From: Tubiluchus corallicola
Lineage: Eukaryota > Priapulida > Priapulimorpha > Priapulimorphida > Tubiluchidae
Direction: 5' to 3'
NCBI GenBank assembly: GCA_030141605.1
Contig: JAQGDQ010000122.1
Location: 124,001-188,000, forward strand
DNA: 64,000 bases
A program made the position numbers and the translations under genes. The stretch's first letter is position 1. Every line of letters starts with the position of its first letter. The notes beneath the pieces are model-generated. The model did not search any database and had not been told where the DNA came from. It saw only the letters and a program-made list of their open reading frames with translations. This document shows positions 44,401-47,400 of the stretch, piece by piece.

Positions 44401-47400
44401 AAAAGACAAATGCGACTAGACAAACAATAAAGTATACACAAAAGTGAAAAGATGACAAATGTAGTTAATCATAAGAGCATTTGCTCTTTGAGTAAGGTTA
44501 TTCTCTTCTCAAATCCCAAATATCATTAACTTTCTATGTCTGAAAGATCCGGGATTTTTCCTCTGCATATACTTTCTACACGAGCCAAGGTCAGTTTCTG
44601 GATTTTTTTGGAAGTTCCGTGGGTTTTTTTTAGTTTGGCTTTGAAATGCTACTATTTATTTGTCTAAATATGTATAAACTTGTTTTTTCACACTAAATTT
44701 TCATGTGACCTTGCCGGAGTTAGGTTCTACATTTAGGTTTATTTACATATTGCATACCTAGTGATGCATGGAATTGGAATATCGATAAATTTATTGATAT
44801 TTGATATCTTAACATGGCTTATGCTGCCTTTAGAGCTGAATTGTTTTTCTAGCTTTTGTTTTCTTGTAGCAAAGATATTTTAGTTAGATATTTATTCTGA
44901 TCTATGGCCAGATATTTATTGTGATCTATGGCCAACAGGGGTGATAAAGTTACCATAACAGATACACGTTATGTATTATGTATTATGTATATTACATACA
45001 TGTGCAAATAAATTTTGCTAAAGCACAATGAATTGCTATGTGCTGTGATTGCATAAGATATGTCATTGCATCATTATCAGTTGAATTACAAACCTCAGGC
45101 GTACATTGGGTTACTGTATTTAACAAAAAATTATGTGCAACATCGTTACCGTTCAACTGCTTCTCACAGTAAGACAAAAAATTGTATTCATCCTCTACTA
45201 TGTTACGTATTTCACACGAACAATTTTATTTATTTCTTGGTACAGTAGCTTAACAACATCATAAACTTATGAACTAGCTGTAAAATCTCTAATGACGGTA
45301 GCCTCAATTTGTACTTCTTCACACTGAATTTGTAAAACAATTGCGTTTATAATTTAGTCAAGACACTAGTAAGCGATGTAGACCACTTCTCAACAGCTAT
45401 TAATTTAGGCCAGATAAAACAATTTCCCAAGGCAATAAACTTAATTAAACAGTAAATTTAACCTCGAACATACGACCAAGCAGTTTGTTGCTAAAAGTGA
45501 CTTAATGCAACAATGTTGCTGTCAGCGTCACAAGCTGTTAGGAATGTTGCCTAAAAGCCAGCTCATGTTATTTCTTGGCTTCCAGCTTGGCTCTTAAGCT
45601 TGCTGGCATCTCCGGGGGTGGAGGGCATGGCAGGTGGAAGACTACTTTGACAGAATCGTAGATGAACCACTGTAACGCTGTCGAAGTTCCAGATATGATG
45701 ATCCTTGGAAACAGGCCCTTCCACATACGAACTTACAAAAACAATAACAAAATGGTGTAAAATAAAAATGTAGTTATAAACATAAAAAGACGTCATACTT
45801 TCGAACATTTGCTGCTAATCAATTACATTTCTCAATCACCCAATCTACGTTATACTAACCGTTTGTGCCTGCTGTTAGAGTTGATTGTGCAGCTGAAGTT
45901 ACTGTTATTGTTATTGTTAGTATTGTTACTCGGCAGCAATTTAAGCTAACATTTACATGATCGTTATTGTTTACTAACATTTGATAAGTCAGCTGAACCG
46001 CAAGCATGGTTACACAGTTTAGAGCATGGTTTCTGCGGTCGCAAGCATGGATTCTAACACAATCTAGAACTACGGAGAGTAAAAATCAATAAATTCTTAT
46101 GTTCTGAAACAGCTGCTGTCGTCAACAAGCCAAAGCGGTTCAAGGTCATCACCAAAGAGGTCATCACGACCACCGTGATGAAGGAAACGCGTACCGTCAT
46201 CAAGGTCAAGACGCCGTCCGGCAGGAAGCTTACTGGTACAGCAACTCCGTCACCAGATGGCACAGGATTCGATTGTGTGTTCCTTCCCGATGAGGTCGGC
46301 GAGCACACGGTCATGGTAGAAGTGAACAACCTCAAGCTCAAGCAACCATTTAAGGTTGCGTCTTTACCAACTGAGCCAGTATTGCAACCAACACAGGTAG
46401 CGCCAGGACAAGAAAAAGCACCGCAAGAGCAACAACCCCTGGTTGGGACACTCCAGCAGCCATTGCAAGCTGCACCTGGTGCTAAACCCCAAAAAGCGGT
46501 TCCTGGTGCGCAACCTCTTCAGGCCGCACCTGGCGCACAACCAGTTCAGGCTGCACCAGGTCAAAAACCAGTCCAAGCTGCACCTGGTGCACAACCAGCC
46601 CAAGCCGCACCTGGTGCACAACCAGTCCAAGCAGTACCTGGTACACAACCTGTCCAAGCTGCACCTGGCGCACAACCTGTCCCGGGAGCACCCGGAGCAA
46701 AACCAGTTACAGAAGCACCGCTTCAGCCCCAAAAGGCTGCTATACCTGTAGCCTCTGCACCCGGAGGTGTGCCAGAACCGTCAAAGGTTAAAGTTTATGG
46801 ACCAGGACTCACTGGAGGCACGGCTAACACGCCCTGCGAATTCACCATAGACACACGTGGTGCGGGACCCGGAGCTCTCGGTGTAACCGTGGAAGGACCG
46901 TCTGAAGCCAAACTGGTCACAAAGGACAATGGGGATGGAACTTGTGGCATCACATACATGCCCACACAAGTTGGAGAATATGCCATCAATGTCACTTTTG
47001 CTGACAAGCCGGTGAATGGATCACCATTCAAAGCGAATATTACTCCCGGTCCCGGTGCGCCTGGTGCACCCGTTGCGCCTGGTGCTCCCGGTGCACCCGT
47101 TGCGCCTGGTGCTCCCGTTGCGCCTGGTGCACCTGCTGGTCCCATAGATGTCAGCAGTGTTAAAGTCACCGGCACCGGCGTACAACCGCAGGGTAGGAGA
47201 GGCATCTCTTTTTTCTGCATGCAGTCAGTTTTTGTACATTTTTTGGAAAAATTATTAAGTACCAATATGGTGCACCATTTTGACAGGCTTGGATTTACAT
47301 TATTGTAACATTGCCTTGTAACAAAGATTTTTTGTAACATTACCCACTTTAAAAATTTTAGTTTTCTTTAATCCGAATCCACTAATGCAGCAATTTATAT

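Follow-up and report, generated by a model that had tools for sequence, protein, structure and literature searches.

Two Pro/Ala/Gly linkers around an Ig9-like repeat in rod 1 of a filamin from Tubiluchus corallicola

The filamin gene and its exon 17

The window, a stretch of 64,000 nucleotides from the priapulid Tubiluchus corallicola that was analyzed as a whole, holds on its forward strand a filamin gene, which we modeled in 31 exons (8059-62586, +) encoding 2101 amino acids with no stop codons, and which runs on past the end of the window. Modeling started from a repeat profile that was grown from the repeat of exon 17 and searched against the stop-to-stop frames of the window, which yielded the repeats on the + strand; the model was then completed by adding the CH-domain exons and checking the splice sites. 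CH domains recognized by Pfam in exons 1 and 3 (E = 1.7e-15 and 1e-6, respectively), the match of the exon 17 open reading frame to the Pfam family Filamin (E = 4e-35), and the intact 2101-residue model bear out the original prediction of a filamin.

Human filamins A, B, and C comprise 24 Ig repeats with hinges after repeats 15 and 23. In the present model, 17 filamin repeats (R1 to R17) were recognized by the profile, which is itself derived from the window, and the model stops at the start of the Ig20 counterpart. Rod 1 comprises 13 repeats instead of the 15 short-linked ones of the mammalian 24-repeat layout, a departure that touches this layout and not filamin membership. Hinge 1 is found where it had been claimed to lie, at the customary position that separates the last repeat of rod 1 from the Ig16 counterpart, encoded by exon 25 (56382-56508, +) and visible as a 33-residue gap between R13 and R14. 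The successive gaps between repeats amount to 8, 5, 6, 9, 8, 10, 138, 37, 5, 7, 5, 11, 33, 7, -1, and 9 residues, the value of -1 denoting two slightly overlapping profile hits. As all gaps other than hinge 1 are otherwise at most 11 residues long, the two linkers encoded by exon 17 (138 and 37 residues) clearly stand out. Exon junctions 6-7, 9-10, 11-12, 12-13, and 13-14 have near-equal alternatives and were picked by fit to the repeat, and a weak acceptor lies beneath junction 22-23; all of these are less sure than the junctions of exon 17, the features of which are as follows:

46113-47192, +: exon 17 (1080 nt), which starts and ends in phase 1 and holds both linkers
46115-46369, +: remainder of repeat R7 (profile match 56 bits), which starts in exon 16 (exon end at 42512)
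46370-46783, +: linker 1, 138 residues separating R7 from R8 as delimited by the profile
46475-46717, +: nine nonapeptide units in register within linker 1, commonest form PGAQPVQAA
46730-46750, +: QKAAIPV segment near the end of linker 1, a predicted extra beta strand and candidate pseudo-ligand of R8
46784-47047, +: repeat R8, a complete IgFLN domain within one exon
47048-47158, +: linker 2, 37 residues rich in Pro/Ala/Gly between R8 and R9
47159-47192, +: start of repeat R9, the putative Ig11 counterpart, which resumes in exon 18 at 48227

The frame of exon 17 is open from 46058 to 47305. Linker 1 consists of 22% Pro, 22% Ala, 18% Gln, and 10% Gly, is devoid of aromatic residues, and has irregular flanks on either side of the nonapeptide array. 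Tandem Repeats Finder independently recovered a period of 27 at 46502-46707 and at 47054-47143, i.e., in both linkers, which are built from different units. The layout agrees with what had been foreseen, namely a 135-residue linker of degenerate nonapeptides, a single Ig repeat, and a second linker of 34 residues; also the exon number is retained in the new model, and the earlier coordinates were right within a few residues. The gene is hence a genuine filamin with two extra linkers in rod 1, placed around the repeat that sequence comparison assigns to human Ig9 (see below).

Tandem repetition also occurs in the introns of the window. The intron between exons 4 and 5 contains about 42 copies of a 40-bp unit (25645-27326, 95% matches) and 10 copies of a 63-bp unit (24036-24659); the latter array lies within a + strand frame that is open for 217 residues and gave three Pfam matches (best HeH/LEM, 30.5 bits), with no stretch passing on its own, which look like artefacts of repetition. 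Further intronic arrays are located at 13588-13997 (46-bp unit), 21246-21794 (44 bp), and 43961-44360 (55- and 66-bp units). The first intron also contains an open frame of 190 residues (10723-11292), for which Pfam returned nothing up to E = 0.1. Neither Rfam at gathering thresholds nor ARAGORN (for tRNAs) returned a match in the window.

Identity of R8 and comparison with known filamins

Among single-domain chains of the PDB, R8 is best matched by 2di9 (118 bits; next single-domain chain 94 bits), while certain multi-domain chains, scored over their full length, exceed this value. This entry represents Ig9 of human FLNB according to its PDB title and table 4 of PMC3143143. A comparison with the human FLNA sequence also placed Ig9 first (123 bits, 61% identity), followed by Ig12 and Ig17, and all three are on the subgroup-A list given in PMC7714767. 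By these sequence comparisons, R8 is the counterpart of human Ig9, a ligand-binding repeat of subgroup A. This FLNA sequence was checked in part, i.e., Ig10 against 3rgh and the Ig8-Ig9 junction against FLNB 2di9, with which it aligns without gaps; FLNB therefore has no linker between Ig8 and Ig9.

The remaining repeats largely follow the human order. Best matches to human FLNA were Ig1-6 for R1-R6, Ig11 for R9, and Ig13-19 for R11-R17, whereas R10 matched Ig9 (124 bits) and Ig12 (117 bits) almost equally well and was assigned to Ig12 by position. No clear partner was found for R7 (best 29 bits), which is set opposite human Ig8 by position only. This repeat (42500-42512 and 46113-46369), situated just before linker 1, is unusually divergent, with a Thr/Val/Lys-rich stretch and low to middling AlphaFold confidence.

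The gene therefore shares with human filamins the CH-CH head, the order of repeats as far as the window reaches, and hinge 1 in place, but it differs in lacking counterparts of Ig7 and Ig10 in its rod 1 and in having the two linkers around the Ig9 counterpart. In human FLNB, Ig8 and Ig9 are joined directly (2di9), and the same applies to Ig9 and Ig10 as judged from human FLNA together with the points at which 2di9 and 3rgh end. We considered linker 2, which occupies the place of human Ig10, as a remnant of this lost repeat and rejected the idea; Drosophila Filamin (cheerio) is given 22 repeats as well (PMC13225219), which equals the number that a complete rod 2 would bring about here (13 plus nine), so that invertebrate filamins may simply have a shorter rod 1. 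Different from the present gene, the figure legend of PMC13225219 shows two flexible hinges in the Drosophila protein and mentions no others. Caenorhabditis elegans FLN-1, with 20 repeats, resembles the present protein in that its repeat 8 was modeled on a subgroup-A domain, FLNA Ig17 (PMC3143143, table 3). Its modeled repeats 6 and 8, however, span residues 736-828 and 926-1019 (PMC3143143), and since the 97 residues between them have to hold repeat 7, a long linker could not be accommodated ahead of repeat 8. The second nematode protein, FLN-2, is filamin-like and has long template-less stretches between its Ig repeats, but it is much more divergent, with 11 domains modeled, and in the account of PMC3143143 these stretches are not described as Pro/Ala/Gly arrays.

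The rod 1 of FLNa appears extended in electron micrographs, and its domains 4, 9, and 12 bind peptides similar to those bound by rod 2 (PMC4170960). For FLNc, the same source names the compact rod-1 pairs 3-4, 4-5, 11-12, and 14-15, among which 8-9 and 9-10 do not figure. If R8 corresponds to Ig9, as its sequence indicates, the linkers would therefore set apart a repeat that binds ligands and with which, in human filamins, the actin-binding stretch begins. Among the matches listed for the open-licence literature, no paper dealt with Pro/Ala/Gly linkers in filamin rod 1.

Coding and splicing of the linkers

Over exon 17 the frame used here contains no stop codon, as opposed to 9 and 10 in the other two forward frames; for linker 1 alone the numbers are 0 versus 2 and 2, which is weaker frame evidence. 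Among seven in-register units, per-site differences amount to 0.12, 0.16, and 0.38 at codon positions 1, 2, and 3 (column permutation, p = 0.007), and including poorly aligned units (11 in total) gave p = 0.005 with a pooled pN/pS of 0.60. Linker 1 furthermore combines a GC content of 58% with a GC3 of 27% (R8: 51% and 43%; window GC: 36%). Because third codon positions are the most variable among the units, the array is probably translated and constrained, and the linkers as such are very probably coding. Taken together, open frame, codon-position bias, and GC3 point to diverged copies kept as peptide rather than to an intron, a newly arisen run, or an error of frame, the last of which had already been denied in the original prediction. 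The codon-position bias is, however, no proof of a mechanical role.

It is conceivable, if rather unlikely, that the linkers represent a tolerated low-complexity expansion, in which a junction that permits insertions allowed a 27-bp array to lengthen in frame, with little effect beyond added length. The tandem 27-bp structure would fit this scenario, as would the absence of any Pfam or NCBIfam match for either linker up to E = 0.1 and the lack of a linker at the corresponding junctions of human FLNB (Ig8-9, 2di9) and C. elegans FLN-1 (before repeat 8, as read from table 3 of PMC3143143). On the other hand, the units have diverged, with third positions varying most, which points to selection on the peptide, and two linkers made of different units lie on both sides of one particular repeat. 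When linker 1 was compared with PDB sequences, three matches up to E = 1 were obtained (two at E = 0.017 and one to a 'spindlefibril' chain at E = 5.7e-11, in which no single stretch passed by itself), which we took to reflect a shared Pro/Ala/Gly composition. Searches of the exon 17 protein against viral contigs (27 pattern matches) and prokaryotic genome contigs (94 pattern matches) gave no confirmed match, a result that has no bearing on animals.

Splice sites were scored with a matrix built from the model's own sites in a leave-one-out manner. While exon 17 has an ordinary donor (6.5), its 3' splice site at 46113 scores lowest of the 30 in the model (-6.4), so that the earlier statement of clean phase and codon structure on both sides holds for the phase (1 at both ends) and the donor but not for the acceptor. 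Joining exons 16 and 18 preserves the frame, introduces no stop, and creates a hybrid repeat of 79.8 bits. A weak acceptor together with in-frame skipping makes isoforms without exon 17 possible, and one may envisage a cassette exon that confers the linker module on some isoforms only, whereas its skipping would leave a rod 1 of 11 repeats without linkers. We regard such a cassette as a possibility of low probability: apart from the acceptor and the hybrid repeat, it could invoke the symmetry of exon 17 (1-1), which is weak evidence by itself given that 16 of the 30 exons with a modeled 3' end are symmetric (by start phases), and the ligand-binding repeat would be lost on skipping. More generally, isoforms without part or all of the linkers are possible, either by skipping or by use of internal GT-AG pairs. 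A possible conservation of the 3' boundary of exon 17 with human FLNC (c.3791-1G>C in PMC11173278) is not claimed: the phase agrees, but the residue match is a few residues off.

That the linkers stem from an error of assembly or frame, or from an intron taken for an exon, is very improbable, as the array structure in itself and two in-frame GT-AG pairs within the exon (46442-46523, score 11.6, above 6 of the 30 modeled introns; 46506-46752, which would remove 82 residues, score 8.6, above 4 of 30) are set against a frame that is open throughout, the codon-position bias, the low GC3, and splice phases that fit the rest of an intact gene. We rejected an intron misread as exon on the codon-position evidence; internal in-frame splicing may nonetheless occur.

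Linker mechanics and a candidate latch

Disorder prediction, named beforehand as a check on the linkers, gave low AlphaFold confidence for most of linker 1 and for the middle of linker 2. Block means of pLDDT are 94-97 for R8, 39-51 for most of linker 1 (exon residues 91-200), and 75, 48, 53, and 72 for linker 2 (exon residues 311-350), i.e., the ends of the latter are not low. In the first alignment used (A1), the nonapeptide array is covered by no other row, which the low pLDDT may partly reflect, and in A1 and the second alignment (A2) at least one row starts with M where the codon is GTG. According to these models, R8 is probably flanked by two largely disordered stretches. The earlier picture of one Ig domain hanging between two flexible spacers is thereby supported in its main part, i.e., the largely low-confidence flanks, but not for the end of linker 1, for which the models suggest, with modest confidence, an extra strand folded back on R8.

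The explanation that we favor, and hold as a whole to be moderately probable, is that the two inserted, probably translated, and largely disordered linkers on either side of the Ig9-like R8 act as entropic spacers in the 13-repeat rod 1. They would uncouple R8 from the neighboring repeats, rod 1 could bend at them, and low-force extensibility would be gained before any Ig repeat must open. A worm-like-chain estimate with assumed values (0.36 nm per residue, persistence length 0.5-1.0 nm) gives linker 1 a contour length of about 50 nm and an extension of roughly 16-25 nm at 5 pN and 25-32 nm at 10 pN; for linker 2, the same arithmetic yields about 4-7 nm and 7-9 nm, respectively. A changed mechanical design of rod 1, as originally proposed, would follow from these properties. 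Among the points against the spacer reading are that the tail of linker 1 may be docked, as in the AlphaFold models, instead of free, and that, given the weak acceptor of exon 17, some or even most isoforms may lack the linkers.

The predicted strand raises the question of a tethered latch, in which the end of linker 1 would occupy the CD groove of R8 as an additional strand and mask its ligand site, the long linker would provide slack, and force or a competing ligand would free the site, creating a mechanosensor in rod 1. In rod 2 of filamin A, the A strands of Ig18 and Ig20 cover Ig19 and Ig21 (PMC4554727). The likeness would consist in a strand from N-terminal sequence on a subgroup-A ligand face (PMC4554727), which is only predicted here; the difference is that it is contributed by the preceding Ig domain in rod 2 of filamin A, but, according to the prediction, by a disordered linker in rod 1 of the present protein. 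We consider this latch doubtful, though several features are in line with it. Both AlphaFold runs place the strand at the same position (exon residues 206-212 in the first, 206-210 in the second), and alignment of the models (VIA-align 2) superposed residues 202-313, i.e., strand plus R8, on 5xr1, by its PDB title Ig21 in complex with a C-terminal peptide of integrin beta-2, over 106 of 106 residues at 1.5 Å (second model, same range, 1.6 Å). The masked pair Ig18-19 (2k7q) was aligned more loosely, over 116 and 121 residues at 2.8 and 4.5 Å. A proline just after the strand, described for known ligands along with rod-2 masking in PMC4554727, has a parallel in the ASAP that follows the strand here, and the sequence QKAAI is tied second among the longest proline-free stretches of linker 1 and holds its only isoleucine.

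However, the pLDDT of the strand region is modest (block means of 78 and 74 in one run) and lower in the shorter construct (58 and 62), the two runs have most of their input in common, and AlphaFold may have learned such complexes and may put any N-terminal tail there. The groove position, as well as the assignment of the first residues of 5xr1 to the bound peptide, was inferred from titles and alignment ranges. In addition, 2j3s, which holds the masked pair Ig20-21, was aligned without the strand (93 residues, from 219), and the predicted strand contains a proline, whereas a proline in the LARP5 motif is presumed in PMC10164935 to hinder binding. A pattern common to the tail of integrin beta-7, K-x-A-I-x5-P, is held by a fraction of 0.0024 of shuffled linkers; it was set aside, since it had been chosen after seeing the sequence. 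Extending the latch to a new kind of mechanosensor in rod 1, in which the disordered linker of an Ig9-type ligand-binding repeat on flexible leashes would end in a pseudo-ligand strand that masks this repeat, with leash length setting the opening force and exon 17 perhaps present in some isoforms only, is speculative and appears improbable.

Mechanosensing by filamins has been placed mainly in rod 2, though the rod 1 of FLNc has compact pairs (PMC4170960). As entropic spacers, the linkers could change how this filamin, a cross-linker of the cytoskeleton, stretches or senses force, and a naturally occurring filamin in which long spacers surround a ligand-binding repeat of rod 1 would offer a ready experiment on the stiffness of rod 1 and on the actin-binding stretch of repeats 9-15. 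If the predicted latch were true, it would illustrate how low-complexity sequence can give rise to a force switch that masks itself.
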